A program made the translations under genes and the position numbers. From Euptelea pleiosperma (taxonomy: Eukaryota > Streptophyta > Magnoliopsida > Ranunculales > Eupteleaceae): a stretch of 64,000 bases of DNA. Location of the stretch: contig CM068544.1 of assembly GCA_035048495.1 (NCBI GenBank), positions 12,952,138-13,016,137 of the forward strand, written 5' to 3'. Below, one piece after another: positions 24,571-59,959 of this stretch (positions within the stretch are counted from its first letter, which is position 1; the number at the start of each line of letters is the position of its first letter). The notes beneath the pieces are model-generated. The model worked only from the letters and a program-made list of their open reading frames with translations, ran no database searches and was not told the DNA's origin.

Positions 24571-24667
24571 TCAAAAGTACACCTAATCAAATCATATCAA
24601 CTAACATACCATCAATTCCCTTCTTATCATGCAACTCCCTTCATCATTTGTTTTCTGAACTTCAAGA

Positions 24668-24805
24668 CTGACGATAGGAAAGGAGGAAAACGACGATAGA
24701 CAAGGAGAAAAAGAACAAGAGAAAAGTAGAAAATAGACGATATACAAAGATAAAACAGACGACAGATAAGAGGAAAACAGACCATAGATAAGAGGAAAAC
24801 AAACG
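24668..24805. repeat. 22-bp minisatellite array 4a
   Basis: About six copies in the same orientation as arrays 1-3 (cores GACGATAGACAAGGAGAAAA and CAGACGACAGATAAGAGGAAAA). It ends about 20 bp before an inverted array. Confidence 0.8.
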
Positions 24806-24824
24806 AGTTGGAGTGGACTATTTT

Positions 24825-25030
24825 CTGCTTGTCTATCGTCTGCTATCCTCTCGTCTATCGTCTGTTTTCTTGTTGTCTCTTGTCTGTTTTACTTTTTATG
24901 TCGTATGTTCTCCTTTTGTCTGCGGTCTGTTTTCTCGTTCTATATCGCCTATTTTTTTTGTTTGTCGTATATTGACTTCTGTCGTCTGTTTTCTCTTTCA
25001 TTTGTTTTCTCGTTTTATATCATCTATATT
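24825..25030. repeat. 22-bp minisatellite array 4b, inverted
   Basis: About nine copies of the reverse complement of the 22-bp unit (TCGTCTGTTTTCTC, TCTATCGTCTG). With array 4a it forms a large inverted repeat. It ends at GATGCGACAAAAGC, where unrelated sequence begins. Confidence 0.8.
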
Positions 25031-25864
25031 CTACTAGGATGCGACAAAAGCTCTCAGCTGATAGATAGCAGAAAGTTGGGATTGGGAATGCAAATAAAGT
25101 TAGAACATTGTTACAAAATCAAAGTACAAATGAATACATTCTTGAGCAAAATAGTCTTTCCCATGCAAAGAATGTTTGTCGTATACCATTATTCTCTTTT
25201 ACTATCATCAAGAACCTCTCCTCTTGAGATCCATACAAACATAGCACTAGCTATCAAGCCTAAAATGAGATCCATACAAGCACAACACTAGCTATCAACA
25301 GACTCAATCCTTTATTGTCACTGTCGTCGCCGCTTATATGAAATCATTGCAAGTGGGAGGTCTCCATTCCAATTTATCATATCCATACAAGGGGAAGCTA
25401 CAGGAATGACTAGGGGAAAAAATCTAAACAAAGATGTTAAGAGGGGAATGCAGCACCATCTATGAAGCCTAAAATGAGATCCATAAAAACACAACACTAA
25501 CTATCAACAGACTCAATCCTTTTGTCACTGTCGTCGCTGCTTATATGTAATCATTGCAAGTGGGAGGTCTCAATTCTGGTTTATCAGCTGACTGCACATG
25601 CTGAGCATATGCAGGAGGAGAAGCATGCTAAGTTTGCTTCTCTTGATGAGCATGACAAGCTCAAGGCAGGACGACGTTGGAATCTTCAAGGAACCAATTC
25701 TTTTCCATTCCACCCATTCCCAGCTTCACTAAATCCTTCTTTGTCTTTTACGACAACATCATAATAATCGGAGTCCATTTTGAGAAAGAGAAACAGATCA
25801 GTTGCAATAGAAAAATAGGATCACAAATGAAAGTAATAAAGGAATAGACAATAACCAAGGGGAA
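25031..25864. other. Region with a 209-bp tandem duplication
   Basis: The segment starting AAGCCTAAAATGAGATCC at 25256 recurs at 25465, including CAACAGACTCAATCC and TCATTGCAAGTGGGAGGTCT. A third, partial copy of GAGATCCATACAAACA lies at 25226. The rest of this interval has no recognised gene except the fragment entered separately. Confidence 0.7.
25583..25764 (+). pseudogene. Unidentified coding-like fragment
   Basis: A plus-strand frame from about 25583 to 25764 reads like real protein in its first 40 codons, with a charged, helix-like stretch (HMQEEKHAKFASLDEHDK). It is not related to the 22-bp arrays around it. I do not recognise the family. Inside a MULE-like region it may be a captured host-gene exon (Pack-MULE style), but it may also be chance. 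Confidence 0.25.
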
Positions 25865-26234
25865 AAAAGAAGATAGAAGAGGAGAAAACCGATGACAGAA
25901 GAGGATAAAATCGACAACAGAAAAGGAGAAAACAGACGACATAAGAGGAGAAAAACAACGACAGAAGAGTAGAAAATCGACGACAAAATAGGAGAAAACA
26001 GACGACATAAGAGGAGAAAACAGACGACAGAATAGGAGAAAGCAGACACCATAAGAAGAGAAAACAGACGACATAAGAGGAGAAAACAAATGATAGACAA
26101 GGGGACAAGCAATGATAGCGAAAGGGAAAATAGATGATTACCAAGAGAAAAGAGGATGACAGTAGAGGAGAAAATAGTCAATAGAAGAGGAGAAAACAGA
26201 CGATAACCAAGGGGAAAAGCGATGATAGACAAGG
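25865..26234. repeat. 22-bp minisatellite array 5
   Basis: About 16 copies (cores GACAGAAGAGGAGAAAAC and GACATAAGAGGAGAAAAC). The last unit is cut after GATGATAGACAAGG, where the LTR of the Tat/Ogre-like element begins at 26235. The array is thus older than that insertion. Confidence 0.85.
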
Positions 26235-27022: not shown

Positions 27023-27687
27023 AGGACTCTAGGGACAGAAAAGGGGATCTTCGACTATTTCATTGTGATAAGGCTATATACTCTATCGAAATTCATCTAG
27101 AATTTGACTTAGTGTTTTCCTTCAGTGTATGTGAGATTTACCGAAGAAATATAGAATCTCAAGTTCAGATATCCTGTACAACATTAGTAAAAAGGTAATT
27201 CCTAATGAACTATACCGGATAGATGTTCCTCTTCTAAGGACTCTATGCCGGGTTACTATGAGATTAATACTTGAGTGATGTACTCCCCGTCTTGAGGGAA
27301 ATGGATTGAAGCAAGAGAACAAGCCTATCCTTTGTGGGTCCAGGGGATTCCGCTTAGGGTCGGAAAACGGTTAAGGATCCGGCACTTAGAATCTAATGGA
27401 GTTATCTCACCTCATAGATGTTTCTGTCACATCGTTTAATGAACCTATTAATGTTATTGAGACCCGGAGATCTTCTCCTTCTTAATGAACCTATTAATGT
27501 TATTGATATCTGGAGATTTTCTCTCCATTGTTTAAAGCATGATGCTTAAAAGATAATCATGAACTAATCAATGAATTAATTAAATCATACACCTTTGAGA
27601 CTACCCAAGTAGAGGATGACTCCATTTAACAATGTTTTAAACCCGTTGGATGCATTTTGGACATTCCCTAGTCCCTTAGTATGACAG

Positions 27688-30600
27688 TGAAAGTTGGATT
27701 TTTCCGTGTCGTTGGTTACGGAAACCCTAACTTCAACACATTTTTAATTAATCCGAGACATTTAACCTGTAAAATGAGCAATTTTGCATAGTGGCTCGTG
27801 TCGGATGTCGATCCGCACTCGGGATTAGTCGGATTAGCGCGAGTAAGAACAAAAACTGACGGATCATCACAAGAAATAATAGATAAAAACAAACTTCATC
27901 ATTCAGTGATCAAATGTTTATTACAATGCTTGAATCGAAAATAACATATAAGAAGATAAACTAAAAAGCAATTTTAAAGAAGAAAATTCTAGAGAGAGTT
28001 AAAGAGAGAAAATGAAGTGAGAGAGTATTTCTAGAGAGAGAGAACTATCAAGAAGGCTATTCTAGAGAGAGAAACTATGTAGCGAAGAGAGAAATAGATA
28101 GAGAAATCTAGAGAGAGAACTACCCTAGAGAGAGAATGTTAGAGAGAAAGTGAGAAAAACTAAAGAGAGGTAGAGATAGAAACTAGAGAGAGATTGAGAT
28201 GGAGAATTACCTCTCACTTACCGACATATCAGATCAACCATGAGGAAGGCACATGCAAGGGTCCGGTTGTGCTACCATAGATTAATTGCCCAAGTGTGAA
28301 GCACAGACAATGCATGGCAGCAAGGAAGTCGAAGTTGAATGCGAGGGTGATTTAGCAACTGGTTTTGATGGTCGGCTTGGTGATCTTGGATGCAAGGTGG
28401 TACCTCGAAGGTGCAAGTTGGAGCCAACAACGTTGGCAGCAAGGGAGTAACTCGAGTTGAGAGTTTTGCCGGAGAAGGAGCCAAGGGTGGCTAGTGACGG
28501 AGGCAGTGGTGCTGCCCACAGATGCAGGCGATGTGCAGCTAGTAGTTGCTGTTTGTCAGCGAGGCAGCAAGGTGTTGCTGTTGCACCGGAGTAGAGACGT
28601 GTAGCAGCGGAGAGGGCGGACTGACCTGCTAGGTGGTGGTTGGTGGTAATGAAAGGAGAAAGAGGCGCTGACTGTTGGTAGCGTGGTGGAAGGTGTGCCC
28701 GTGTGAAGGAGGCGGCAGCAAGGTGTTGCTGTTGCAGGCGGGCTGAGGAAGATGGAACGCAGCAGGTTCGTGGTTGCACAGTGGTGAACCATGAAACGTT
28801 CAGATCTGGAGGTGTGGATAGAAGGTTGCTGTATGCTACAACGTGGAGGCGCTGTGGTTTGGCGGTGAAGAAGGAGGAAACGGGAAGTTAGTGTAGCACC
28901 GTTTGGAGAGGGAATGGAGAGAGAGAGATAGGGGTGAAACGATGGAGCACCTTGTGCTCACCGTGAAGACAGCAGGTGGCCGGAGTTGCAGGCGGCAACT
29001 CCGGCGATTGCAAGTTAAAAAAAAGATGAAGAAGAGGGAGATGAACGCCTGACCTGTGGAGGGAGCAAGCAGAAGGAAGAGAAGGGGGTTAGGATAGGGG
29101 AAGGAGAGATGGCAAGAAGAGGAAAGAAGCGAGGAGGCTGTAGGCTGGTTGCTGTGCAGGTTTCCGGCGAGCTTCTCGCCGTAGAAGACGATCGGAGTTG
29201 CACCTGCAACTCCGGTGGAATTAAAGGAAAAGAAGAAGAAGAAGACTGAGGACAAGAAGAAGAAGAAAACGAAGAGGAAGAAGAAGAAAACGAAGAGGAA
29301 GAAGAAGGATAGGAGGAGAGGGGGAGAAGCTCACCGTTTTCTGCTGTGAAGATGACGGTGATGGAGCATGGTTCGCCGGCCGGAGTTGCAGACCTGCAAC
29401 TCCAGCAAAAGAAGAATAAAACGAAGAGGAGGAAGAGGAGAAGAAGAAGAAGAAGAAGAAGAAGAAGAAGAAGAAGAAGAAAAAGGAGAAGAAGGAAACC
29501 AGTCGCCGGAGTTGGCTCGCCGGTGTAGCTCGCCTGATTAGTAGAGAAGAAGAGAAAGAAGAAAAAGAAGAAGGAAGAAAGAGGAGGGGGAAGAGACCAA
29601 AAAAGGAGAGGGGTCTTAGGGTTTTCAACCCCTCTTCACAATGAGAAACCGTGGGTTTCTAAACTTAGAAACTCACGGTTTCTAAAAAAATTATCTTATT
29701 TTTATTTTTGAAAAGTGATAAGTGGGTTACGGGCTTGGGCTCGTGGGCTATTTGGCCATGACCACCAGGCCAAAAGCTGATGCCACGTGTTGGCCAGTGG
29801 TTGGCCGAGAGATGACGCCACGAGTCGGCCAGTGGTTGGCCAATGGGAATGCTAAAAATCGTGGGCCCAGAGTGCATCGGCCATGGGCCAGAAGGTAGGT
29901 GAGAATGATAGTGGGCCACTGGGCTCGATGGATGTGGGTTAGGGTGCATTTGGTTGCCAGAGGAGAAAAATGCATTTTCCCCTTGAAATACCCATCAAGG
30001 AAAAATGTATTTTCCTTTCTTCGGAAATCGAGCTCTACGCTCTCAGCCACAATCAACCATCTGAGGCATTTCTCTACAATCAAGCCTGCCTTAGGGACTG
30101 ATATTTTACAATGGAGATCGGGTGGTTGATAGGATGGATGATCGACTGATCGGTAGCACGATTGGATGGTCGGATGCATAGAATTGATAGATCAGATGGC
30201 GATCTATAGAGATTCAACGGCCCGATGGAAGATCCAACGGTCAGAAAGCTAAGGGAGATGAGACAGAGCCAATGAGCAGGAGTTCTGGGGTTAAGTCAAT
30301 AGATTCGAGGACCGAGAAATGAAGAGAGAGAATAAGGAGAGATGAGAGAGAAAATATCAGAAAAAGTATTGGCAGAGGGTCATGAACCCTGGTTTTCCAT
30401 TGTTCTTCACTTGAGCTTTGCCAGTAGAGCAGGCCATCATTTGATGTGGCTTTAAATGTTTTGGTCCTTCTCTTGGTTATCAGCTCTCCCGCTCTCGTGG
30501 TTCCTTGGGCCAGCTCTTCGATCCCCTTGTTCAGCCCATAATAGGCTCATATCTTCTAGACATAGCCTGTGGACTCTTTAAGCTTTGATAATGGGCTTTC

Positions 30601-30879
30601 ATGATCCATGTGGGCCCACTAGTCTCGAGAATCATCCAATCAGGATTTCCTGCGACAGAAGAAGCGCGTAATGAGACTTTATCAGAACGGCTTAATATCT
30701 AGACTTCCGAAAATGTGTTTAATGCATGCAAATATACCATTTCGTCCAGAAAAGTGTGTTCTACGCAATGAGATAGACTCTTACGTAGAAAAGTGGATAA
30801 TTAGAGCAGTTTTACGTAGGAGAGTGCGATAATGCTAAAAAGATAATTGCTTAAAATAAGCACTTTTGAGCGAATATCA
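27688..30879 (-). repeat. 3' LTR of the non-autonomous element
   Basis: Read on minus, it starts TGATATTCGCTC at 30879 and ends CCAACTTTCA at 27688. It contains hairpins CCGGAGTTGC / GCAACTCCGG (28980-29004), CGGAGTTGCA / TGCAACTCCG (29193-29214) and 29381-29404; the U3 hairpin 29644-29683; a GAA tract (about 29443-29480); and repeated TTGGCCAGTGGTTGGCC words. Open frames within it are composition artefacts. Confidence 0.92.
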
Positions 30880-32422
30880 CAACCCCCAACCAGCATATTG
30901 CCAATCCTTGGCAATTAGTGAGAAATAAATGAGCTTAAAAGGGCTCTGCACATGCTGCACACTTTTTCATATTAGCCAAAGGAAAACACCGTTCGTCATA
31001 TCATTGAATGAATGCAAAAATAGTTACATGTTAGCGAAGAGTTTGAAAGTTTTGGCAAGACTACAGACTGATAATCATGACCCAGAATAGTCAGACTCTG
31101 CGTGTGTGTGTGCTCAACATTCTCATCATTCGACAGTAAAGATTTTCAGATCACCTCTAAGTTTTTATGCCTTGACCTCAAATCTCACATGTTCAGCACT
31201 CAGAATAGAATCACACAAGAAGGGTTTTCTTCTTTTCTCTCAATTTATATGTGAGGAGATGTGTTGATATATGAAAGCAAAGATCTCACATATGTATTAT
31301 TTGAAGGAAGGACATCTTTAACAGAAGAAGATCTCATGATTGGAATACCACTTCACTCGGGAACGTCAGATCAAACTCTATAGCTTCTCTTTCTCCAATC
31401 TCCACATTTTATGATCGTACTATCCTAGAATCAAGTAGGACTTTCCTGGGTTGTAATGAGGCTTAGGTCAGGTGTAGAGAGATAAAGGGATACAGGATTT
31501 CAAAGATCTTCAGAGGATATTGCCATTTTCTTGCATTTTTCCTGCGACGTAACACCATTATCTGGTTCTTTTTCCTTTTTTCGTATTTTTCTCTTTTTCT
31601 TGATATTTCTGAGACTGCTCAATTTCTTTTCAGCTCTTCTTCATACTTTCTTTCTATATTTTGTTTTTGGCTTGAACTACTTTCTTTTCCTTTTGATTCT
31701 TCTTCTTTACTTTTCTTTTTCACGGTACACCCACATCAGTTATTCTTTTGTCCATCTCAAAATAAGGGTAGCCAGTCATGTTTCGTAGTTGGACTGGATT
31801 TTAGGTTGATGGGTTTGCAAAGAAAAGGCTTTTATAGAAAGGTTCAAAGGGTTTCTAGTGAAGTATAATTCAGGTGAGTAAAAAGGCTGAATGGTTCAGA
31901 AAAAATGGCCTAAATCATTTTCTAGGGTTTGCACTATCATGTATACTGTCTTGACTGAATATAGAGAAGGTTCTGTCGTAGTAATCCAATGTTGATGTCG
32001 TTCCGAGTTCCATGATCGAAGCAAAAGATAATGAGATCTCTCAACGAATATTGCGGGCATGAAGAATAGTGAGTCATGCATTGACTCAGGATTATTGTAT
32101 AACTCTCTGAAATGATTAAAGGTTCGAAAGCTCACTGGGTTAGGTCTCCACAATTCTTCTCATAGGATCTCTAGAATTTCCAAACTTAGGATGACTCTGA
32201 TGTTGATAGTGTACAATTGTGCCGAATCTGAGTTTTTCTAAGTTTTCAAACCTACTGTAGTCACACTTGACTTGACTCAACGCTAACTTTAAACAAAAAT
32301 TGACATCCTCAATACTGACTTAACGGAGGTTTTCAGCTAATCAAAGTCAGGGTATTTGACACATTTTTGAAATTCTAGAAAACTTTTGGAGAACATCGGA
32401 AATCACCCAAAAAACTTTTTTC

Positions 32423-32455
<33 letters not shown>

Positions 32456-32851
32456 CAAAATGAAGACATGAGTTTTGGTAAATACCCACCCCCAACCAAA
32501 ATATGGCACCGTCCTCGGTGCTCATGACCGGGACATAAAATGATAACAAATCAGTGATGATGATGCAAAGATTCAGGAAAGATGTTACCAAGTCGGCAGA
32601 AACTCGACAGTGTGTGATACCTGATGATCGGAAGAATGAATGTACCTGCATTGCCAAAGATATAACAATAATCACAAATGCATGAGACTCATGTACTCTA
32701 GGAATACCGGAATTGCCTTTCCGAAAGCGCTAAGTTTTACGTCTTCAGCCAGACATGACGGGGGTATATCAAGTACCCCCAACCAGGTTAAAACTTATGG
32801 AGACTGAGTGAATCTGCAGTCTTCCTGACACCTAAGGTGGAACGGAAACAG
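30880..32851 (-). other. 3' non-coding region of the non-autonomous element
   Basis: It corresponds to 46994-48913 of the autonomous-type copy. No envelope-like ORF is present. The sequence next to the LTR reads GGTTGGGGGTTG on the minus strand, a G-rich stretch in the position of a polypurine tract though not a clean one. A homopolymer T run lies at about 32420-32453. Confidence 0.7.
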
Positions 32852-34678
32852 TTATCCTATCCCTTGTCTAGGTATACCTGTGTAGAACAGGTCTTTCTCA
32901 GTGTAGACTGAGAGAAGGGCATTGAGCTCTCTGAGCAGACCGGCAAAAGTACGGAGTTGATCTGGGAGGGATCGAAGCTTCTCAGTAAAGATTGAGAGGA
33001 GAGTAGGAGTGGTTTCTCTGACCAGACCCGCAAAAACATTTAGTTCAGCGGGGAGGGATAGAAGCTTCTCAGTAAAGACTGAGAGGGGAGTAGTAGTGGG
33101 TTCTCTGATAGTGGTTAGCAGAGCCGCAAACTCATTGAGTTTTGCGGGAATGTATCTGAATGGAGCAGACTCCTGCAGATCAGTAATACCAGATATATTG
33201 GACTCCGAGATGAAGTCAAACTCACAGTGTTCATGACACTTGGATAAATTATCTTCAGGAGAGTCTTGAATTAGACTCGCTACGGCACACGGGTCATCGA
33301 TAATATCGACATAGGGTAGCGGGTGAAAATTGTTGACCTCTTCCTCGATGTTTCCTAATGTGATAGGGATGTTCCAATCCCTACATTCAATACGTCCCTC
33401 CTCGGTGGGGATCGGTAGGTCCAGGACAGCGGGAGGCCCATTTTCTAGACATGGCTCATCAGTAGGAATGTCTGCATTCAGAGCAGAGAGAGAATTATCA
33501 GAGATAGAGATGGGACTAAGTTCTTCTGTGCTCAGTCCAGAAGTTGGTGCTGTTAAGGGCACCAAAGATTGAGAATCGGGTTTATCACTGTTGTTGCACA
33601 ATCCAAGGGAGGTGGGGAGGAACGGTAGATCAATGACGGTTGGGATCCTATGATCGAGACACAGCTCAGTGTCATGGAGATCATCTTCAGGGTCCAAGTT
33701 AGAAGCAGCAGTGGGAGAGTGAGAAATAGGTTGCTCGGAGGTAGGTTCAGGATGTGGTGCTTTTAAAGGCACCGAAGAAGGAAACACTGGCTCCTCAATA
33801 GTCTGGCTCGATCTAGGGGTGGGTACAACTTCTATTTCTTCCTCACAATGGTGGTACTGGGTCCAAATGTGCGGCTCCTCATTATAGACAGTATCCATAT
33901 CATTCTCCTCAGGATAGGCGATTGGTGGACTAGTGAAGTTGACTTCCTCTCTCTCATTTTCTAATTGAACTAGACGTTGCTCGAAGCTCTCCATAGATTG
34001 CTGTTGTTGGTGCTCTAGCTGGGCAATGTACTTAGAGAGAAGGTCCTCTAGACCAGGGTTAGTAGCCAACGGAGGTAGTTCAACCAAGGGGAGCTGAGGT
34101 GCTAACTCTTGATTGTAGCCCGACTGGGTATGTAAGTTGTAAGGCAAAGTGGAGTCTGGGACTAGTTGCTGACTCTGAAAACCCTGAGGGGCCCACTGTA
34201 GATCAGAATAGTCATTCTGTGGATATGACGGGTACTGGGATTGCGAGTATTGCCAGTCATACTCTCCATTGGGTTGACGGAACCCGGAAGGATAATTATC
34301 CTGCGGCAGTTGCTGCGGGAGGGCAGACTGTTCCCAACCAAAGTTATGGTGACTCCTATTATCCTGATAGTTGTCATAGGATGTCTGCATTGGAGATGGA
34401 AAAGTACAGACATCTTGCTGGATAGGAGGGTAATATCCTACAGACTGGGAATGGTACACAGGTTGCTGGACTGCGGCACGAAGGGCAGAGACTGAATTTT
34501 TAAGCTCTTGGAGTACAGAATCGTACTCCGGATCTCGGTGATTATCATACCCTGTAGAAGTGTGCGAGACTGGAGTAGCATGATGATACGCAGAATTGTC
34601 ATACCATTGTTGAGAGTGATCACCTCGATTCTCACAGAAACTGTAGTAGGTCTCATACAGAGGCCTTTCATCTGCCAT
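32852..34678 (-). CDS. 608-residue gag-derived protein of the non-autonomous element
   Basis: An intact frame of 608 codons. Its first residues (MADERPLYETY) align with the gag start of the autonomous-type copy (MAVERPLIETF), which supports this start. About 20 residues in it jumps to sequence matching the end of the autonomous capsid region (HSQQW versus NSQHW), so the capsid domain is deleted. The CX2CX4HX4C zinc knuckle is also absent. A Gln/Tyr-rich segment follows (about residues 100-200), then a short coiled coil (LEHQQQQSMESFEQRLVQLE). Decayed copies of the protease C-terminal part appear twice (TELCLDHRIPTVIDLP, DEPCLENGPPAVLDLP), but the catalytic DLGAS motif is missing. The end is made of about three repeats of a 30-residue unit (FAGLLRE...LLSVFTEKL). 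It encodes no enzyme; any role in RNA packaging or gag assembly is inference. Confidence 0.75.
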   Translation of the reverse strand: MADERPLYETYYSFCENRGDHSQQWYDNSAYHHATPVSHTSTGYDNHRDPEYDSVLQELKNSVSALRAAVQQPVYHSQSVGYYPPIQQDVCTFPSPMQTSYDNYQDNRSHHNFGWEQSALPQQLPQDNYPSGFRQPNGEYDWQYSQSQYPSYPQNDYSDLQWAPQGFQSQQLVPDSTLPYNLHTQSGYNQELAPQLPLVELPPLATNPGLEDLLSKYIAQLEHQQQQSMESFEQRLVQLENEREEVNFTSPPIAYPEENDMDTVYNEEPHIWTQYHHCEEEIEVVPTPRSSQTIEEPVFPSSVPLKAPHPEPTSEQPISHSPTAASNLDPEDDLHDTELCLDHRIPTVIDLPFLPTSLGLCNNSDKPDSQSLVPLTAPTSGLSTEELSPISISDNSLSALNADIPTDEPCLENGPPAVLDLPIPTEEGRIECRDWNIPITLGNIEEEVNNFHPLPYVDIIDDPCAVASLIQDSPEDNLSKCHEHCEFDFISESNISGITDLQESAPFRYIPAKLNEFAALLTTIREPTTTPLSVFTEKLLSLPAELNVFAGLVRETTPTLLSIFTEKLRSLPDQLRTFAGLLRELNALLSVYTEKDLFYTGIPRQGIG

Positions 34679-36502
34679 TAGAGGTGATAGAGGGGTGTGG
34701 TGGACTAACTCTCAGATCGAGTCAGTAAAAGGTTAGGACAGGTCCAACCGGGCGTCTACTTGAAAAAGCAAGCCCAAGATTTGGCAAAAAGTTGCCAAAA
34801 GGAGATACTGCAGTAGTGATTCTAAATGATGCACACCAAGCACAGATAATCCTATTCTAAACAATCAGGATATATTTTAGGCATTATCTTGTTAGTTTTG
34901 GGGCTAGAGTACATTATGACAGTGGGCGGACCACTGGTTTATTTTGTTAACCGCCGGACTAACTTTGTCGCTCTTAGGTTCTCACCAGGCTACACTCTTC
35001 AAAGCGAATCCTTTAGTACTGACTCTAGTCAACAACAAGGCAATCCGAAGCCTAGACAGACGTACGGCACAATGGCTGTCTTAAGTACGTCCCAGACTAA
35101 CCGGATTGGTCAAGTGTTTAAGAAGAGTGTTCCCTCGGGTTAAGCTAGGGTTGGTGCGTGTTCCTAGTCCACACGTAACTAACCGCCGAATAGTCCAAGA
35201 TGCCACATAGAGCTCAGTGTACTTGAGTAGCAGGGACTTATGGGTGTCTTAGACAACAGGGACCCGCGCTCGTGGTCTTATTTCGATTGGATGTTAAGCG
35301 GGTTCACTTTGTGTGGATTTTTCCTCGAACACCGGGCTAATTGGCTTTACTCTTGATTCTTTTTAATTAAATGGAGCCTTGGGATGAAATCAGATGGAAT
35401 GATGAGGTGGGTGATGAAATCCCACCAGTTGTAAAAGAGTTGGGTCTGCTCGATTAATGTTCAATTATTAACGGCCACGCCACGCAAGTCGAATAATATG
35501 TATGCGAAAGCAAATAGACAAGCGGCAATGATTCACCCAAATTGCTCTGTATCGCACTCAAGGCGAGGATAGAGACTTACCTCCCGTGGGCCACGCCACG
35601 GGGTCGCCTCTTTGGGGTAGGGAGGGGTATCCTTCATGAGCATGGGCCCGACTCCTCCTAAGTGAGCTTTCGCTCCCTACCCGCAGTTAGATTCGCAATC
35701 CTGCATACGAATTAGTATATGATATGGGTCTAGGGTGTGGGAATATTTTTTTTTTTTTTTGGAATGTCCCTGCCTAGGGTGGGTAAGCAATCAATCAATC
35801 AATTAGGCAGGGTAAATTGGAAAGTTACTATTCATGAGAGTTGACTAAACAACTATCAACCCCCTAATAGACCTTTCCAATTTAAGAGTTTCTCCAAGTT
35901 AGGAAAATTCCCTAAAAGTAGAAGTTTCCTAAATCTGAAAACTTACTAAACTTAGGGTTTCTTCCTGTGTTGGAAACCTTCCAAAAAGGGGACCTTCCAT
36001 AGTTAGAAATCCTCTAAAAATAAGAATTGCTAATTATGGAATTTCGTCCGATTTGGAAACTATCCAAATAAGCTTAATTCCAATTTGAAATTTCCCAGGA
36101 ATGGAAACCGTGCAAAAATGGAAATTTTCCGATTCGGGAAGTATCCAAAAATGCAATCTTCCCATATGCGAATATCCTAAAATGTGCAAAAATAGAAACT
36201 ACCATTTTTCAATTTTTTTAATTTTTTTGGTATTTTTTCACTTAATCTAGGGTTTCTAAAAAACCCTAGAACAAGATCTAGCAGTTTATATGGAAAGTAG
36301 TAAAATTCCTAAATTATTACAACTTTGCACTCGGCCTTCCGAGGCATTAAAAATAGTAATTTAAAAACTGCTTAAAATCAACAAAAACAAAAAAATAGAA
36401 AGTTTCCCGAAAAGGTCAGGCTGTCCAAATTGAGCAGCTTTTCGCTTCAGCAACTTTTCAATTCCGTCTTTACGTCCTTTTTCGCACTCCCGAACACCCG
36501 AG
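34679..36502 (-). other. 5' leader of the non-autonomous element
   Basis: About 1.8 kb between primer site and ORF, matching 55621-57454 of the autonomous-type copy. It contains the CCCGTGG/CCACGGG hairpin followed by GAG|GTAAGT (minus, GT at 35580-35579), a donor-like site conserved in three copies. No coding frame is credible. Confidence 0.7.
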
Positions 36503-36516
36503 CGGCAGCGGCGCCA
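36503..36516 (-). promoter_or_regulatory. Primer-binding site, tRNA-Asp type
   Basis: Minus-strand TGGCGCCGCTGCCG, two bases after the 5' LTR end (TTTCA|AA). It matches, with one mismatch, the complement of the 3' end of plant tRNA-Asp, the primer usual in Athila/Tat elements. Confidence 0.8.
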
Positions 36517-36518
36517 TT

Positions 36519-39500
36519 TGAAAGTTGGATTTTTCCGTGTCGTTGGTTACGGAAACCCTAACTTCAACACATTTTTAATTAATCCGAGACATTTAACCTG
36601 TAAAATGAGCAATTTTGCATAGTGGCTCGTATCGGATGTCGATCCGCACTCGGGATTAGTCGGATTAGCGCGAGTAAGAACAAAAACTGACGGATCATCA
36701 CAAGAAATAATAGATAAAAACAAACTTCATCATTCAGTGATCAAATGTTTATTACAATGCTTGAATCGAAAATAACATATAAGAAGATAAACTAAAAAGC
36801 AATTTTAAAGAAGAAAATTCTAGAGAGAGTTAAAGAGAGAAAATGAAGTGAGGGAGTATTTCTAGAGAGAGAGAACTATCAAGAAGGCTATTCTAGAGAG
36901 AGAAACTATGTAGCGAAGAGAGAAATAGATAGAGAAATCTAGAGAGAGAACTACCCTAGAGAGAGAATGTTAGAGAGAAAGTGAGAAAAACTAAAGAGAG
37001 GTAGAGATAGAAACTAGAGAGAGATTGAGATGGAGAATTACCTCTCACTTACCGACATATCAGATCAACCATGAGGAAGGCACATGCAAGGGTCCGGTTG
37101 TGCTACCATAGATTAATTGCCCAAGTGTGAAGCACAGACAATGCATGGCAGCAAGGAAGTCGAAGTTGAATGCGAGGGTGATTTAGCAACTGGTTTTGAT
37201 GGTCGGCTTGGTGATCTTGGATGCAAGGTGGTACCTCGAAGGTGCAAGTTTGAGCCAACAACGTTGGCAGCAAGGGAGTAACTCGAGTTGAGAGTTTTGC
37301 CGGAGAAGGAGCCAAGGGTGGCTAGTGACGGAGGCAGTGGTGCTGCCCACAGATGCAGGCGATGTGCAGCTAGTAGTTGCTGTTTGTCAGTGAGGCAGCA
37401 AGGTGTTGCTGTTGCACCGGAGTAGAGACGTGTAGCAGCGGAGAGGGCGGACTTACCTGCTAGGTGGTGGTTGGCGGTAATGAAAGGAGAAAGAGGCGCT
37501 GACTGTTGGTAGCGTGGTGGAAGGTGTGCCCGTGTGAAGGAGGCGGCAGCAAGGTGTTGCTGTTGCAGGCGGGCTGAGGAAGATGGAACGCAGCAGGTTC
37601 GTGGTTGCACAGTGGTGAACCATGGAACGTTCAGATCTGGAGGTGTGGATAGAAGGTTGCTGTATGCTACAACGTGGAGGCGCTGTGGTTTGGCGGTGAA
37701 GAAGGAGGAAACGGGAAGTTCGTGTAGCACCGTTTGGAGAGGGAATGGAGAGAGAGAGATAGGGGTGAAACGATGGAGCACCTTGTGCTCACCGTGAAGA
37801 CAGCAGGTGGCCGGAGTTGCAGGCGGCAACTCCGGCGATTGCAAGTTAAAAAAAAGATGAAGAAGAGGGAGATGAACGCCTAACCTGTGGAGGGAGCAAG
37901 CAGAAGGAAGAGAAGGGGGTTAGGATAGGGGAAGGAGAGATGGCAAGAAGAGGAGAGAAGCGAGGAGGCTGTAGGCTGGTTGCTGTGCAGGTTTCCGGCG
38001 AGCTTCTCGCCGTAGAAGACGATCGGAGTTGCACCTGCAACTCCGGTGGAATTAAAGGAAAAGAAGAAGAAGAAGACTGAGGACAAGAAGAAGAAGAAAA
38101 CGAAGAGGAAGAAGAAGAAAACGAAGAGGAAGAAGAAGGATAGGAGGAGAGGGGGAGAAGCTCACTGTTTTCTGCTGTGAAGATGACGGTGATGGAGCAT
38201 GGTTCGCCGGCCGGAGTTGCAGACCTGCAACTCCAGCAAAAGAAGAATAAAACGAAGAGGAGGAAGAGGAGAAGAAGAAGAAGAAGAAGAAGAAGAAGAA
38301 GAAGAAAAAGGAGAAGAAGGAAACCAGTCGCCGGAGTTGGCTCGCCGGTGTAGCTCGCCTGATCAGTAGAGAAGAAGAGAAAGAAGAAAAAGAAGAAGGA
38401 AGAAAGAGGAGGGGGAAGAGACCAAAAAAGGAGAGGGGTCTTAGGGTTTTCAACCCCTCTTCACAATGAGAAACCGTGGGTTTCTAAACTTAGAAACTCA
38501 CGGTTTCTAAAAAAATTATCTTATTTTTATTTTTGAAAAGTGATAAGTGGGTTACGGGCTTGGGCTCGTGGGCTATTTGGCCATGACCACTAGGCCAAAA
38601 GCTGATGCCACGTGTTGGCCAGTGGTTGGCCGAGAGATGACGCCACGAGTCGGCCAGTGGTTGGCCAATGGGAACGCTAAAAATCGTGGGCCCAGAGTGC
38701 ATCGGCCATGGGCCAGAAGGTAGGTGAGAATGATAGTGGGCCACTGGGCTCGATGGATGTGGGTTAGGGTGCATTTGGTTGCCAGAGGAGAAAAATGCAT
38801 TTTCCCCTTGAAATACCCATCAAGGAAAAATGTATTTTCCTTTCTTCGGAAATCGAGCTCTACGCTCTCAGCCACAATCAACCATCTGAGGCATTTCTCT
38901 ACAATCAAGCCTGCCTTAGGGACTGATATTTTACAATGGAGATCGGGTGGTTGATAGGATGGATGATCGACTGATCGGTAGCACGATTGGATGGTCGGAT
39001 GCATAGAATTGATAGATCAGATGGCGATCTATAGAGATTCAACGGCCCGATGGAAGATCCAACGGTCAGAAAGCTAAGGGAGATGAGACAGAGCCAATGA
39101 GCAGGAGTTCTGGGGTTAAGTCAATAGATTCGAGGACCGAGAAATGAAGAGAGAGAATAAGGAGAGATGAGAGAGAAAATATCAGAAAAAGTATTGGCAG
39201 AGGGTCATGAACCCTGGTTTTCCATTGTTCTTCACTTGAGCTTTGCCAGTAGAGCAGGCCATCATTTGATGTGGCTTTAAATGTTTTGGTCCTTCTCTTG
39301 GTTATCAACTCTCCCGCTCTCGTGGTTCCTTGGGCCAGCTCTTCGATCCCCTTGTTCAGCCCATAATAGGCTCATATCTTCTAGACATAGCCTGTGGACT
39401 CTTTAAGCTTTGATAATGGGCTTTCATGATCCATGTGGGCCCACTAGTCTAGAGAATCATCCAATCAGGGTTTCCTGCGACAGAAGAAGCGCGTAATGAG

Positions 39501-39703
39501 ACTTTATCAGAACGGCTTAATATCTAGACTTTCGAAATGTGTTTAATGCATGCAAATATACCATTTCGTCCAGAAAAGTGTGTTCTACGCAATGAGATAG
39601 ACTCTTACGTAGAAAAGTGGATAATTAGAGCAGTTTTACGTAGGAGAGTGCGATAATGCTAAAAAGATAATTGCTTAAAATAAGCACTTTTGAGCGAATA
39701 TCA
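36519..39703 (-). repeat. 5' LTR of the non-autonomous element
   Basis: Almost identical to 27688-30879. The hairpins recur at 37811-37835, 38024-38045, 38212-38235 and 38469-38508. The GAA tract (about 38274-38305) is slightly shorter than in the 3' LTR. The upstream end (minus TGATATTCGC) is at 39703, followed by the TSD GACAG. Confidence 0.92.
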
Positions 39704-40030
39704 GACAGGCTGAGGGACCCATTCAGCATGACTAGATTAAAATTACCTTCTTGGGGAATGATGAACTGGAAGCGACATTAATCAATCAACCCCCTGTTAT
39801 GTTTGTGGCTATTTGGAATGACGGTGTTAGTGAATGACAGTTCAGTTAAGTTCTACTGTATGAAATGGATGCCATCATGTCTGTAGTTGTTCAAAAGATA
39901 TGACACACACTGCATTACCATTCTCATGGACTGACAGAGACCACTCATATCCTGGAAACCCTAGAAATGACACCAACATGCACTCCTCCCGCTTCCATCC
40001 TCGTGTGTCGCCAAAATTAGCCCGACAATA

Positions 40031-40047: not shown

Positions 40048-40966
40048 ACATGTACTACTTGTTCTTTGCTTCATTCCCTCCCACCAAAGGACGAGGGGCT
40101 GTGTGCACCAATTTGATAAATTGATTTTAATTGATTGGTTGGACGGATAGATTTTTACTCAATACCATGTTTGGCGTGTATGCATCATGTACTCCAGCGA
40201 ATCGTTAATGCATTCTGATTTTTCCATTAAGAAGACGCATTTTCGCTAATCTAACATGCCCATGTCACATATCCCATAACCTATTATACAAGAAGCATGT
40301 TAATTATGATTATTTGAAAATTAATAATGCAACAATCAATTAAATCAGAGGCGATGAGGAGATGTGAATCCGCGTAGGGTCTAATACCGCGAGATTCATG
40401 TTTCTTTATCCTCCGAACCTGCTCAAGTGTGACATTGCTCCAACATCCGAAAGGGTTAACATTGGATGTAGGAGATCAATTTTATTAACGAGCGGTTCCT
40501 TAAACCTTCATTAAAATATCTATTTAGTCGATTATTTTAAAGCCGGATTTCATGTTTGTTTTGCCTTTTTCAATGAGGTGGCGTAACCTCATGTGTTAAA
40601 TCTTGAAAGGGTCTATATTTTCATAAAAATATGATTTTAATAATTTATAAATCGATCACTTTTGAAAAGATTTTTATCATAAAAGTTATTATGATCTTAA
40701 AACGAATTTCTTATTCTTGTTTAGAAAATATAAGCTTAAAGCCACTCCGAGAAGGAAGCTTTTTCGATATTTGTATTTCAATGTTTTAAAAATGGGCCCT
40801 TTGAGTAACATACGCATGGAGGCTGCGCTACTTCATGTCTCTTTTATCGCTTGTGTTTTATTTTTTTGAAATGTCTAAGAGATCAGACATTATTTTTCTC
40901 AAAACGAGTATAAGTTACCTATTGAAGGTTTCTTTTTTCTTTAAAAAGAGTTCGAGAGGGAGGCAT
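40048..40966 (+). other. Leader of the Tat/Ogre-like element
   Basis: AT-rich 5' untranslated region between primer site and gag. A frame is open from 40835, but its first 44 codons are hydrophobic and unlike gag. No other gene is visible. Confidence 0.5.
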
Positions 40967-48531: not shown

Positions 48532-48562
<31 letters not shown>

Positions 48563-53064: not shown

Positions 53065-54070
53065 TGATATTCGCTCAAAAGTGCTTATTTTAAGCACTTA
53101 TCCTGTTAGCGTTATCGCACTCTCCTACGTAAAACTGCTCTAATTATCCACTTTTCTACGTAAGAGTCTATCTCATTGCGTAAAACACACTTTTCTGGAC
53201 GAAATGGTATATTTGCATGCATTAAACACATTTTCGGAAGTCTAAATATTAAGCCGTTCTGATAAAGTCTCATTACGCGCTTCTTCTGTCGCAGGAAACC
53301 CCGATGGGACGATTTTCGAGACTTGTGGGCCCAAATCGATCATGAAAGCCCATTATCAAAGCTTAACAAGCCCACATGCTATAACTAGAAGATATGGGCC
53401 AAATATGGGCTGAATAAGAGGACCAAAAAGCCGGCCCAAAGAACGAAGAGAGTAGGAGAGCCAATGACCAAGAGACGGACCAAAGCGTTTAAAGCCACAT
53501 GAGTCAGCAAAGAATGATGGTCGACTCTACTGGAGAAGCGTGAGGATGGTCACAGTGAAGACCAGGGTTCCAGACCCTCCGCCAGTGCTTTTTTCCATTT
53601 TTTTTGATACTTTTTCTCTCATCTCTCCTTATTCTCTCTCTCTCTTCATCTCTCGATCCTCGAATCTACTTACCTAACCCCAGAACTCCTGCCTATCAGC
53701 TCTATCTCATCTCCCTTAGCTTTCTGACCGTTGGATCTTCCATCGGACCGTTGGATCTTCAATCGGACCGTTGGATCTCTCTAGATCCGTCGATCTACCA
53801 ATCTGGGTCCCAATCAAGTCACCATCCATCCGATCGCCTTCAGAATGCCTGTCACATCATCTTGTGAGACGATGGACATCATCAGTCCATGTGGGCCAGT
53901 AGCCGGGCCCATCATCATCGACCCGCTGTCTGACCAGTTAGTGGACCCCGCGAATTTCAAAAATAATTTTAATTAAACGGGGGGTCCACTAATTGGGGAG
54001 ATTCCCCATAGAAAAGTAGGTTTTTACTTAAAAAAAAAAAAAAAAAAATATTTTTTATTTTCAAAAAATA

Positions 54071-54107
54071 CCCTATTTCCATTAATGGAAATAGGGAGCT
54101 TTATAAG
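54071..54107 (+). promoter_or_regulatory. U3 palindrome plus TATA-like box
   Basis: A perfect palindrome (arms CCCTATTTCC / GGAAATAGGG, 54071-54096) lies five bases before TTATAAG (54101-54107). This is the likely core promoter of the element. Transcription would start shortly downstream, near GGGTTCG. Confidence 0.55.
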
Positions 54108-54255
54108 ATGAGGGAGAAGGGTTCGTTCGAACCCTAATCCCCCTCAAATCTTCTCCTTTCTCTCCCCCTATCAATCCCGCATTCACCCTTGGCCCCATTC
54201 TTCTTCTTTTTCTTCTTTTCTCTTTCTCCTTTTCTTCATCTTCTTCTTCTTCTTC

Positions 54256-54279
54256 GCCGGAGTTGCCTGCAACTCCGGC
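54256..54279. repeat. LTR hairpin GCCGGAGTTGC / GCAACTCCGGC
   Basis: Perfect 11-bp arms with a 2-base spacer. Equivalents in other family LTRs are at 13758-13783, 13930-13954, 28980-29004, 29193-29214, 37811-37835, 38024-38045 and 45749-45770. Confidence 0.9.
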
Positions 54280-55606
54280 CGTCTGGTAAGGCAGTCTTCT
54301 TCTTCTTCTTCTTCTTCTTCTTCTTCTTCTTCTTCTTCTTCTTCTTCTTCTTCTTCTTTTTCTTCTTCTCCTTTTTCTGTTCTATCTTGCAGCTGCCCAC
54401 ACCGTCCTGGTGGTGCAAACAGCAACAGTTTCACCGTCCCTCCTTCCATTACCGCCCACCACAGTCGCCGGTACCACCTGCTGGTGATCTTCAAATCCAA
54501 CGGCACTACACTGCCTGTGTTTGCCTTCTCCTTGCAAGCACTCACGGTGTTTCTCATCACCAACCCCACCTGCAACATCGAGTTTGGTGCTCTTCCTTGC
54601 TGCCCAACGAATCTCCACGATCTCAGCCACCGTGTAGCCGGACCTGCAACTCCGGTCGGTCCGATTATCACCTCCACCCATCGTATAAGAAAGAGAGTAG
54701 AAGAAGAAGGAGGAGAAACCGCCCCTACCTATCTCCATTCCACCTGCTGCTGCCACGGCCTGCAAGTTGCGGGCCGTTAAACCTTGCGTTGCTGCCATAA
54801 ACGCATCACCAAACCGTTCCTCCATCTTCATCAGCAAGTCCCCCAGCAGCAACACCTCCTTCATCCCCAAACGGCGAGCAACAACCACCTGTTGGTGCGC
54901 CTTCCATAGCCCAGACCACAATGATCTACTTCTCCAAGCTACTGCCACGATCGGACTGCACATCTTATTTCTTGGCCGGAAACTCAATATGACCTTCCAC
55001 GGTATGAGCCTACAACACTGGAAACCCGCAACCACCATGGTAAGATCAAAATACAGTTTCCCTCCCTTATCCCTCGGTCCGTTCAATTTCTCTATCTATG
55101 TCTATCTTTCTCTCTCTAGGACTTCTCTTAGTTCTTGTTTCTCGCCCTAAAAATCTCTAGATTTTCTCTATTTTAACTCTTTCTCTCTCTCTAGTTTTAC
55201 TTCTTTCTAGATTAGTTTGAATGATGTAAGTTTTGTTTTGATGTAATGACAATTTAAATTAATGCAATTATTCTTGGTTTTAGTGTTCTCTTTTGAATTA
55301 TATGATTTTTGCGAATTATAGTTCTTTGATATCAATAAAATCAAAAGCATGTTTTAAATCCCGACCTCTCCATCATTCTCATACCACCATTCATTTTTAG
55401 AAGCATTTATGAACCATGATGTTTTTACATTCTTCCGTTATTTTATGTTCTTGTTTGCGCTAACTAAACCCCGAGTGCGGATCGACATCCGACATACTTC
55501 CACCATGCAAAGCATAGCTTAATTTTGCAGGAAATCTCAGATCGAAATTACAAATGTATTGAGATTAGGGTCGTTCTCTCAACGACGGAAAAACCCTACT
55601 TTCAAA

Positions 55607-55620: not shown

Positions 55621-57454
55621 CTCGGGTGTTCGGGAGTGCGAAAAAGGACGTAAAGACGGAATTGGAAAGTTGCTGAAGCGAAAAGCTGCTCAATTTGGCC
55701 AGCCCGACCTTTTCGGGAAACTTTCTATTTTTTGTTTTTGTTGATTTTTAGCAGTTTTTAAATTACTATTTTTAATGCCTCGGAAGGCCGAGTGCAATTT
55801 GTAATAATTTAGGAATTTTACTGCTTTCCATATAACTGCTAGATCTTGTCCTAGGGTTTTTTAGAAACCCTAGATTAAGTGGAAATTACCAAAAAAAAAA
55901 ATTAAAAAATCAAAATTCAAAAAAATTAGGGTTTTATATTCTGCAGATTTTTAGAAATCACCAATCAAGGATTTGCGATTTTTGGAAAGATTCCAAAATC
56001 TTGAAACTCTGCTTAATTAGGGTTTCCCCTCTTAGAAGTTTCCTCTTTAGAAGAATTTCTATCTTTAGAAATCTTCCGAATTTGGAAAAGTCTGCAAAAG
56101 GAAACATCCCAAATCTAGCAGAATTTCAATTTTGGGAAATTTCCCAAAATTATAAGGGATCTCGCAATCAAATCTTTCTTGGAAGATCTCCACAGTTCGG
56201 GAAACTTTCCAATCTAGGTATTTTCCAATCTGGGAATTCCTAAATTTTAACCCATCTCGAATTTGGAAACTCATTCAAAAACTTGCCTAAATTCAGTGCT
56301 TGTTCAGTGAACCCTAAAAAGGCAAGGATCTTCCAAATAGAATCCCACATACCTAGACCGTGCGATCTAACTGTTTCTGCAGGAACACGATCCAGTGTGG
56401 GTAGAGAGCGAAAGCTCAAAGAGGTGGAGTCGGGCCCAAGCCCATTAGGATACCCCTCTCTAACCCACGGAGGAGACCCCGTGGCGTGGCCCACGGGAGG
56501 TAAGTCTCTATCCTCGCCTTGAGTGCGATACAGAGCATATTGGGTGCATCATTGCCGCTTGTCTATTTGTTTTCTAGCAACAACTTATTCGACTTGCGTG
56601 GCGTGGCCGTTAATCAATCAACTCTAAGAGAGCAGACCCAGCTCCAAATTGAAACTGGTGGGATTTCATCACCCACCTTATCATTCCAGCTGAAATTGAT
56701 CCCCAGGATCCATCTATAATAAAAAGAATCAAGAACTAGAGCCAATTAGCCCGGTGTTCGAGGAAAAATCCACACAAAGCGAACCCGCTTAACATCCAAT
56801 CGAAATAAGACCACGAGCGCGGGTCCCTGTTGTCTAACACACCCATAAGTCCCTGCTACTCAAGTACACTGAGCTCGACGTGGCATCTTGGACTATTCGG
56901 CGATTAGTTGCGTGTGGACTAGGAACACGCATCAACCCTAGCTTAACCCGAGGGAACACTCTTCTTATCCACTTGACCAATCCGGTTAGTCTGGGACGTA
57001 CTTAAGTCAGCCATTGTGCCGCACGTCTGTCTAGGCTTCGGATTGCCTTGTTGTTAACTAGAGTTAGTACTAAAGGATTCGCTCTGAAGAGTGTAGCCTG
57101 GTGAGAACCTCTGAGTACAAAACAGTTAGTCCGGCGGTTAAAAGATAAACCAGTGGTCCGCCCACTGTCATAATCTACTCTAGCCCCAAAACTAACAAAG
57201 ATAATTCCTAAAATATATCCTGAGTGCTTAGAATAGGATTATCTGTGCTTGGTGTGCATCATTTAGGATATTGTTCCTCTCTGGCAACTTTTTGCCAAGT
57301 ATAGAGCTTGCCTCATTCGCGTATGCCCGGTTGGACTCGCCCGAACAAGCGCTTGATTCGATCTGAGAATCACGTCCCTACAGTGGATCCTCCACTGAAT
57401 TCTTCCCCATCTCTTGCCCCACCCGCCTCCCCCAGTACTACTACCTTTGTAGTC
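55621..57454 (+). other. 5' leader of the plus-strand Athila
   Basis: A 1.8-kb untranslated region. A CCCGTGG / CCACGGG hairpin (56480-56497) is directly followed by GAG|GTAAGT (GT at 56500-56501), a strong splice-donor match also present in the two non-autonomous-type copies. No protein is encoded. Confidence 0.7.
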
Positions 57455-59959
57455 ATGGCAGTCGAACGACCTCTTATCGAGACGTTCGCTCCTATCTCTG
57501 CCAATCCGCCCACTTGCATTGTTCTCCCACCTACTACGGCGGTACAGTTTGAGATCAGACCGCAGACGATCCAAATGCTGCCTACCTTTCGTGGTCTCCC
57601 AAGAGAAGACCCTTATTCCCATATTAAGGAATTCCAACATGTCATCCTACTTTTCAAGAATCAGAACCTTGATGATGACAATGTCCGTTTGCGAGTTTTT
57701 CCATTCTCGCTCAAAGACCGAGCCTCAGATTGGCTCTACTCCTTACCCGCTGATTCAATCAGCAGTTGGAAAGAATTGGTGGGCAAATTCATGTCTAAAT
57801 TCTACCCCATGACTCGGACCAACCAAATGAAGCAACTCATTCAGGACTTTAGACAGAAGTCCGATGAGAAATTTTTTGAAGCATGGGATAGATTCCAAGA
57901 CTACCTGACTAAGTGTCCCCACCATAGCATCGATAAGGGCAATCTTGTCCATGTCTTCTATAAGGGACTTACTGATGAGTCCCGGACCATGGTAGAGTCC
58001 ATGTGCCAAGGAAAATTCCTGCACCAAACTCCGACCGATGCATACAAATTCTTGGGAGAGTTAGGAGAAAACTCTCAACATTGGACGACTGACTCAGAGT
58101 TTAGTCGAACCACTTCGGTCCAAAGGACAACCAAGGGACATGATGCTACAGCTGATACTGAGCTTCGATCAGTCATTCAAGAGTTGAGCAAGTCAGTCTC
58201 GGCACTGGCTGTGTCTGTACAAAAGCCTACTCAACAATCTACCCCAGTCATGCATGTGGGACACGAGAGCCCTATGGAATCCTGCACCCTCTGTCTGCAA
58301 CCCTCCCATACTACTGAGCATTGTCCTTTGAATGAAGGATGGTCTAATCCTCTTCAGGAAGAAGTTTGTGCTTTCAGCACATACAAACCTCCTACTCAGA
58401 ACTCGTATAGTCAATCTTATCATTCGGACATGAGGAACCACCCTAACTTCTCTTGGAGGCCTCAGTCTACTCAACCACAAGCTCAACCTCCGCGTCAGCC
58501 TCAGGGCATGTATCCTCCTGGGTTCAATCAACCCAATAGGCAATTCAATCAGGGACAATACCAGCAGAATCCGTACCCATCTACTCAGAACCAGCAGTTC
58601 CAACAGGGTCAATACTCTGGACAACAGAGCACATTTCAGAATCAGCAAAGAGTTCCCCAGAACTTTCAGAACCAACAGATTGTCCCAACTAATTCTTCCG
58701 CCTATAACTATAATGCCCCGATGAGCTCGAGTCGCGAATTGGTGCCTCAGCTCCCATTAGCTGCTCCCCAACAGTCGCTCCCCAAATCTGGTATCGAAGA
58801 CCTTCTAGCTCAACTCATTACTCAGCAACAACAATCTATGCAACGCCTAGAGCAACAGCAACAGCAATCCATGCTTCGTCTAGAGCAACGTCTAGGTAAC
58901 TTGGAAGCTGAGAAGGCTAAGGGGATCTTTCCTAGCCAACCCATTGCCAACCCTAAAGGAAATGCCAAAGGGCCAGTATATGAGATCGGATCCCAATCTC
59001 AAAGCCAGAATGAGAATTGTCAAGGGGAGGTGCAAGCTGTAACCACCCTACGATCTGGAAAAACTGTGGACATGGGAGTCCAACCACCACCGGTGCCATC
59101 TCCGGCACCCATCACTCGCACAGAGGAAACTAGTCCTAATCCTACCTCTGCTTCTTCTACATCTGCACCAACATCAGATATCTCTGTGCAGAAATCTAAG
59201 GCTAAAGACAAATCCATTTGTCGAGTAAAGCCTCCTTTCCCGGACAGACTTGTCCAAGATAAGCGGGATCAGCAATTCTCTGAGATCTTAGATGTCTTTA
59301 AAGACGTCCAGATCAATATCCCATTCCTTTCTGCTATCAAGCAAATCCCCTCCTATGCCAAATTCCTCAAGGACTTGTGCACAGTTAAGCGGCGTACGCA
59401 TGTACCCAAAGCTGCCTTCTTGGCCGAAAAAGCTACCGCGTTCATTCAACGCAACAGTGTGATCAAACACAAGGATCCAGGTAGCCCAACTGTCCAATGT
59501 GAAATTGGCGACAACTTTAGCTGCACTGCCTTGCTAGATTTAGGGGCTAGCGTTAACCTCATACCATTCTCGGTATATCAGCAGTTAGGACTGAAAGATA
59601 TGAAGCCTACCAATGTCACCCTGAAATTGGCTGATCAGTCCATCAAAATTCCAAGAGGAATCATTGAAGATGTCCTAGTAAAAGTCGCTGACTTTTATTA
59701 TCCTGTGGACTTTATCATTCTAGACACCGAGCCGTGTCAGGATAACCGCATTCCGGTCATCTTAGGGCGTCCATTCCTTGCCACCGCGAACGCACACATC
59801 GGTTGCCAGGACGGAAACATGTCCATTGCTTTCGGTAACCTCAAAGCTGAGGTCAACATCTTTCGTTTAATGCAACAAGATGCCGATCGCGAAGTGACCG
59901 ATGAAATGTGTGCCGTTGAGAGTCTAATCCCGGACTCCACCGAAGATATTCTTAAGTAG
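57455..59959 (+). pseudogene. Athila gag and protease (plus copy)
   Basis: Start placed at 57455 (MAVERPLIETF) and not at the upstream in-frame Met 57308, because the homologous non-autonomous ORF begins at the same point. The capsid-type Retrotrans_gag region covers residues about 42-210 (LPTFRGLPREDPY ... GENSQHW). The zinc knuckle CTLCLQPSHTTEHC is at about 277-290. A Gln-rich spacer and a coiled coil (QQQQSMQRLEQ) follow, then the aspartic protease with the catalytic Asp in LLDLGAS (codon at 59537) and ILGRPFLATA. The frame continues into pol but meets TAG at 59957-59959, where the minus copy has CAG. Otherwise it is intact. Confidence 0.88.

Follow-up and report, generated by a model that had tools for sequence, protein, structure and literature searches.

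A 64,000-nucleotide stretch of the Euptelea pleiosperma genome (GenBank assembly GCA_035048495.1, contig CM068544.1, positions 12,952,138 to 13,016,137 of the forward strand; hereafter the window) contains a long terminal repeat (LTR) retrotransposon with one open reading frame (ORF) of 608 codons, P0001 (34678-32852, minus strand, ATG to stop). Sequence comparison suggests that this element is a recent insertion from a non-autonomous lineage, old and very successful, of Athila-like Ty3/gypsy type. The frame of P0001, a remodelled derivative of gag, remained open and acquired its acidic character well after loss of the protease core. The ORF is under selection; on the amino acid sequence this selection is weak and was detected in residues 1-330 only. 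The best reading of these results, with a probability of roughly one half, is that P0001 is an accessory Gag-derived protein working with the particles of an autonomous partner.

Structure and age of the P0001 frame

An initial annotation of the window, made from the sequence alone, had described an intact 608-codon ORF in an element with nearly identical LTRs and a perfect target-site duplication. These claims were confirmed, with the addition that the ORF lies on the minus strand, which had not been stated. At the base composition of the ORF, 27 stops would be expected by chance in 608 codons (P of none ~7e-13). The 5' LTR (36519..39703, with TG...CA ends) and the 3' LTR (27688..30879), both on the minus strand and about 3.2 kb each, are 99.2% identical with gaps counted and differ at 18 of 3,185 aligned columns (99.4% identity; divergence K 0.0057). 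A perfect 5-bp duplication is found on both flanks (39704..39708 and 27683..27687). Under a rate applied to wheat, 1.3e-8 substitutions per site per year (partial text of PMC9744471), the LTR divergence translates into a rough age of about 0.2 million years.

The comparator for P0001 was gag2, the gag-protease frame (57305..59959, plus strand) of an autonomous relative in the same window, element 2. A Pfam scan of gag2 identified a capsid domain (PF03732, residues 131-223, 3.4e-21) and an aspartyl protease (residues 730-824), and a CX2CX4HX4C zinc knuckle was recognised by eye. Residues 12-329 of P0001 correspond to the Gag linker including the coiled coil, with 34-36% amino acid identity to gag2, gaps counted, and the region following the protease core is also retained. 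The capsid, knuckle and protease core of gag2 all lie opposite gaps in P0001, and the Pfam scan of P0001 returned only two matches, both far under the cut-off and neither Gag-related. Relative to its autonomous relative the P0001 element thus has no capsid, zinc knuckle, protease core or any part of pol, as the initial annotation had proposed. It had overlooked that the C-terminal tail of the protease is kept, and is present twice; the C-terminal linker is also repeated.

Retention of the coiled coil, likewise claimed, was upheld. The predicted coiled-coil helix spans residues 210-245 (33944..34051, minus strand) and is also present in the autonomous Gag; it is read from a low-confidence predicted helix (predicted local distance difference test, pLDDT, about 55-79, in a model with a mean of 35.5) and from the alignment to gag2. 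Retention of the gag start (MADERPLYETY) is less firm. About 10 N-terminal residues match gag2 (BLAST E 0.22), and an alignment of many sequences places them at the gag start, while a two-sequence alignment places them at gag residue 233; homology to the gag2 start is plausible, not proven. In wider searches, P0001 had no match in the PDB at E 0.1, no relative in a protein database at E 1e-3 among 7,990 scored candidates, and no match in a genome contigs database. In the same protein database gag2 matched 10 proteins, 6 of them named from plants; neither P0001 nor gag2 matched among viral contigs.

The coding slot is old, unlike its surroundings. Homology of the P0001 element to element 2 ends 143 nt ahead of the ATG, and homology to element B, a third element of the window (46994-53064, minus strand), restarts 62 nt past the stop; the gag-pol slot therefore holds a different, old coding unit between young flanks. 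Synonymous (dS) and nonsynonymous (dN) divergences from gag2 are about 1.7 and 0.48 over 318 codons, and those from element B are 1.3 and 0.38 over 128 codons. The pairwise dN/dS against gag2 (0.27-0.30) was discarded as a measure of selection on the ORF, since it combines the two branches and its dS is almost saturated. In a protein tree of 7 sequences (247 linker columns), the P0001 branch is about five times as long as that of gag2 (0.85 vs 0.165).

A tandem duplication within the frame allows its history to be ordered. ORF nucleotides 857-1065 and 1067-1275 form two 70-codon units (33614..33822 and 33404..33612, minus strand) with 61% nucleotide identity, and 17-26 of 36 bases are identical in each of six blocks. 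In both, the Gag linker runs straight into the protease tail motif, and since both copies contain this junction, the duplication postdates the deletion of the protease core. Divergence between the units is about 0.60, i.e. about 0.30 per copy, with no stop and no net frameshift. The neutral chance of no stop in the 140 duplicated codons alone is about 0.12-0.14 and is not decisive; applied to the ORF in full, about 0.3 substitutions per site should have produced about 14 stops under a generic mutation model, rather than the copies' own spectrum, and none was seen. This shows that the P0001 frame was long maintained, with the exact sequence of the duplicated stretch little constrained. Farther downstream, repeat comparison and the predicted model indicate an 87-bp tandem repeat (32928..33108, minus strand), a duplicated linker between protease and reverse transcriptase that is predicted to be helical.

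Copies, selection and acidification in the host genome

The P0001 ORF belongs to a large family. A search with one of its 36-mers that allowed up to 3 mismatches located 1,104 sites in the host genome of 613 Mb, and the control located none. If each site were a full 12-kb element these would represent roughly 13 Mb, or 2% of the genome, an extrapolated figure since some may be fragments. Protein search of the host genome yielded 72 scored matches (best of 6,298 candidates) with 91-100% identity, each covering at least residues 2-607, and 50 of the 72 are without an internal stop. The initial annotation had regarded the lack of a second copy with this ORF architecture as grounds for abandoning its proposal; such copies are plentiful. 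Sixty of the 72 places were fetched besides the window copy, for 61 copies in all, and the other 11 were left out; open frames were present in 43 of the 60.

The 60 ORF copies, and 20 gag copies used for comparison, were picked by protein score, which favours few amino acid changes. This choice is visible in the gag2 singletons (0.25 of neutral) and perhaps in the stop singletons of the ORF (13 vs 20.6 expected). A less biased sample of 150 places, window copy included, was ranked only by one 60-residue stretch, at which it is still picked by similarity. It contained 67 frames of at least 609 codons (one of 1,016), 24 of 579-608 codons and 59 that were shorter. The expected open share is 42-81% if decay begins only at insertion (K 0.001-0.004 per copy, from the LTR ages of few copies) and 0.2-1.4% if the frame has drifted neutrally ever since the common ancestor (K 0.02-0.03). 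The observed 45% fits the range for decay from insertion, at its old end, and is far from the range for neutral drift.

Variants were tallied across the 61 copies, and ratios of nonsynonymous to synonymous variants (N/S) are given relative to neutral after correction for mutation spectrum. Singletons comprised 285 nonsynonymous, 116 synonymous and 13 stop variants (20.6 stops expected), with N/S at 0.93 of neutral. Variants in at least two copies numbered 224, 128 and 3 (15.7 stops expected; N/S 0.72), and those in at least three copies 151, 89 and 0 (10 stops expected; N/S 0.70), the latter set being distinguished from singletons by Fisher's test (p 0.036). The signal is located in residues 1-330, where singletons stand at 0.90 of neutral vs 0.58 for variants in at least two copies (p 0.008). 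Random stops and a dN/dS near 1 in other copies, which the initial annotation had named as refuting selection, were not seen outright: pairwise dN/dS across the 44 open copies is 0.55, and 13 of the 16 stop variants occur in a single copy, with none in three or more. Flank stretches that align well in 8 copies have K of 0.046-0.056, vs an ORF dS of 0.054 and dN of 0.029; over the whole 1,500-nt leader K has a mean of 0.082, a median of 0.043 and values up to 0.22 (copy L007 was omitted from one row of the 3' untranslated region, UTR).

Divergence from gag2 was accompanied by a strong change in charge. P0001 contains 28 K/R and 93 D/E residues (net charge -65, pI 4.3), compared with 87 and 88 in gag2 (net -1). 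Across the linker columns P0001 has a net charge of -31 and gag2 one of -2, and the ten relatives of gag2 from the protein database range from -5 to +14. The 318 aligned codons encode 11 K/R and 44 D/E in P0001 (net -33) and 22 and 25 in gag2 (net -3). Neutral simulations from gag2 to the divergence of P0001 moved the other way, to mean net charges between +9.5 and +13.5; the lowest single value was -11, and 0 of 1,000 in each of six settings reached -33. The 44 open copies have net charges of -58 to -71. The mean charge change of amino acid variants is +0.22 in singletons (neutral +0.19) and +0.10 in shared variants (neutral +0.23), i.e. charge-raising changes are less common among shared variants (p 0.046).

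Flanking sequence was compared for 10 copies. In nine, the leader (1.84 kb) aligns over about 1.3 kb (89-94% identity in the longest pieces), leaving a stretch of about 0.5 kb that does not align in those nine, and copy 10 aligns over 0.64 kb only. The 3' UTR aligns nearly over its full length in nine of the 10 at 94-95% identity, and over half in copy 6. In 8 of the 10 the retrieved flanks contain no gag or pol piece in the orientation of the element, and copies 8 and 9 contain one each. Long alignments between paired LTRs (copies 1, 2, 3, 5 and 7) give K of 0.002-0.008; for copy 4 half an LTR was comparable (K 0.003), and copies 6, 8, 9 and 10 yielded no full LTR pair. When LTRs of 7 copies were compared with that of the window copy, only 33-62% of the window copy's LTR aligned, at 77-83% identity, so LTR modules vary around one ORF. 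The ORFs of these 7 copies (in the range L069-L088) are 93-95% identical to the window copy, so the LTR middles are shuffled or fast-evolving. At three places the ORF 36-mer is evenly spaced (C2:24847137-24905338, C3:14422427-14500765 and C3:6174939-6200018, at about 8.3, 11.2 and 8.4 kb, respectively), as if family elements there form tandem arrays.

Proposed role and alternative explanations

The initial annotation had offered three roles for the protein: a gag partner, an RNA-binding scaffold or a dominant interfering gag. Of these the gag partner fits best, and a dominant interfering gag is a much less likely candidate. The RNA-binding scaffold fits poorly and was ruled out, the protein being acidic and without a zinc knuckle.

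In the partner model, the P0001 product would be a mostly disordered acidic protein that multimerises via the retained coiled coil. Through this coiled coil, the obvious contact, it could join the Gag of the autonomous partner and so help its own RNA or particle to exploit the partner's capsid, reverse transcriptase and integrase. The working part would be the N-terminal Gag linker with its coiled coil, as the selection signal is located in that half, and the C-terminal half may be a spacer kept open and acidic. The partner itself is apparently intact in the host genome: gag2 had 51 scored matches, itself included (best of 6,985 candidates), and 36 of these places have open frames of at least 1,927 codons with no stop in the matched part. 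More tentatively, at somewhat below even odds, P0001 may represent a new kind of retrotransposon accessory protein, acidic, mostly disordered and coiled-coil, built from Gag linkers and a protease tail, selected for charge and openness over exact sequence, and admitting a non-autonomous element to the particles of another.

Several results weigh against an accessory protein. Amino acid constraint on P0001 is weak, with shared variants at 0.70-0.72 of neutral vs 0.08 in the autonomous Gag linker of the same genome (single variants there 0.25; 20 of 21 rows, L097 being dropped as misaligned). No constraint on amino acids was detected in residues 331-608 among the 61 copies (singletons vs shared variants, p 0.74). 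Branch dN/dS is 0.59 on internal and 0.56 on terminal branches; had selection acted before insertion, the internal figure should have been the lower one. The 70-codon units have equal proportions of nonsynonymous and synonymous differences (pN and pS), and the predicted model of P0001 is largely disordered or of low confidence (mean pLDDT 35.5). The initial claim of selection for a protein is sustained in part, by the purging of stops among shared variants and by residues 1-330.

Some of these points favour an explanation in which only the frame is selected: the element RNA would need a long open frame, for instance to escape nonsense-mediated decay or small-RNA silencing, the protein would be idle, and its amino acids would drift. 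Equal pN and pS between the duplicates, the lack of detected constraint in residues 331-608, a constraint far below that of the autonomous Gag and the purging of shared stops would all follow. This explanation ranks second, because it accounts for the weak constraint and not for the acidification, which is strong, directional and opposite to the neutral trend, is kept throughout the 44 open copies and is accompanied by an under-representation of charge-raising changes in shared variants. The value of 0.58 in residues 1-330 also counts against it, and we consider it rather unlikely.

Alternatively, the product could join the autonomous Gag and chiefly restrain or compete with it, to the advantage of the parasite's RNA or as a limit on copy number. 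A coiled coil retained without capsid or knuckle would suit such a protein, as would the very high copy number, but the many long open frames of the autonomous family do not, and we consider this account distinctly improbable. That P0001 is merely the neutral product of a recent deletion, its frame too young to have broken, is suggested by the small LTR age and is already contradicted by the 1,104 sites, the 67 of 150 open frames, the purged shared stops, the diverged duplication inside the open frame and the long amino acid branch, leaving it scarcely credible.

Non-autonomous LTR elements are often seen as passengers. The P0001 element lacks every scanned domain, yet it carries a selected, directionally changed gene, and domain-based annotation can miss such ORFs. 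P0001 makes it testable how a parasite element uses the Gag of another without a capsid or knuckle of its own. If P0001 is an accessory protein, elements filed as domain-less LARDs could conceal many such genes, and such a protein could have brought a non-autonomous element to about a thousand copies.

Neighbouring elements and known systems

The remaining parts of the P0001 element link it to its neighbours. Its primer binding site (PBS; 36499..36516, minus strand) starts 2 nt past the 5' LTR and may be of tRNA-Asp type; 58 nt from the start of the site are identical in element 2. The 5' leader (34679..36518, minus strand) is about 92% identical at 34822-35685 to the element 2 leader (57266-56396). 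The 3' UTR (30880..32851, minus strand) ends in a polypurine tract (about 30880-30892) that differs from that of element B in one base, and its stretch 30880-32789 has 94.6% identity to element B at 46994-48888.

Element 2, whose 5' LTR lies at 53065..55604 (plus strand), has the same LTR ends and PBS as the P0001 element, as semi-autonomous partners do. At 53064/53065 and 62913/62914, LTR starts directly adjoin gag and integrase coding sequence; element 2 is therefore read as nested inside element B, and a further element as nested in element 2. Pfam places protease and reverse transcriptase of element B on 51007-53097 (minus strand), with RNase H and an integrase zinc-binding domain downstream. 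In element 2, RNase H is followed by integrase on 61157-63028, and its reverse transcriptase piece (59960-60634) had no Pfam match. Reverse transcriptase and RNase H thus precede integrase in the pol of the autonomous relative, the Ty3/gypsy order. The Athila label for the lineage is tentative and based on gag and PBS features.

A fourth element (4458-8093) has the leader and 3' UTR of the P0001 element at 82% identity and a coding slot of only about 0.5 kb; no LTR lies beyond the left end of the match. Several blocks of 22-bp repeat arrays occupy 17694-26233. Three short plus-strand ORFs at 40835-42455, of which 41678-41986 is weakly similar to gag2 (E 2e-4), are possibly another decayed gypsy element.

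The comparisons that follow rest on partial texts of the cited papers. Among the papers listed by literature searches, judged by titles and abstract openings and with most subscription journals outside their scope, none named a selected Gag-derived ORF without capsid and knuckle. The P0001 element is regarded as a variant of known semi-autonomous elements, and domain rules would label it a LARD. Like a TR-GAG it has two LTRs around one ORF, and unlike a TR-GAG it has no GAG domain, P0001 being without a Pfam GAG match (PMC6022998, PMC8704663, PMC9784723). It falls under LARD by the Inpactor rule of no recognised domain and at least 2 kb, applied as described in PMC6022998, and departs from a LARD in the everyday sense by carrying a selected ORF (PMC6022998, PMC8704663, PMC9784723).

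Marco and Marin (2008, PMC2410132) described Athila families of Arabidopsis that are non-autonomous and whose gag or gag+env ORFs evolve under purifying selection; these are similar in being Athila-like and without pol, with an intact gag-derived ORF, recombination with other lineages and recent insertions. P0001 differs from them in the absence of capsid, knuckle and protease core, its acidification and its weaker constraint (PMC2410132). In the Triticeae, RLG_Quinta and RLG_Cereba likewise have PBS and LTR ends in common between non-autonomous and autonomous partners, and the GAG part of Quinta is strongly diverged between two lineages whose flanks are above 90% identical (PMC11302176). Quinta has an extra domain of unknown function, listed here as a further likeness, but its GAG domain is still clear and it is regarded as a supplier of GAG, whereas P0001 is without a capsid domain (PMC11302176). 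In the non-autonomous RLG_Sabrina variants of wheat, which occur in many copies and are thought to be mobilised by an autonomous relative, the GAG-Pro region is similarly replaced by short coding sequences, one variant encoding a partial proteinase (PMC9744471). Four replacements in Sabrina have no homology to other wheat proteins, whereas P0001 is recognisable as Gag linker and protease tail and has evidence of selection (PMC9744471).
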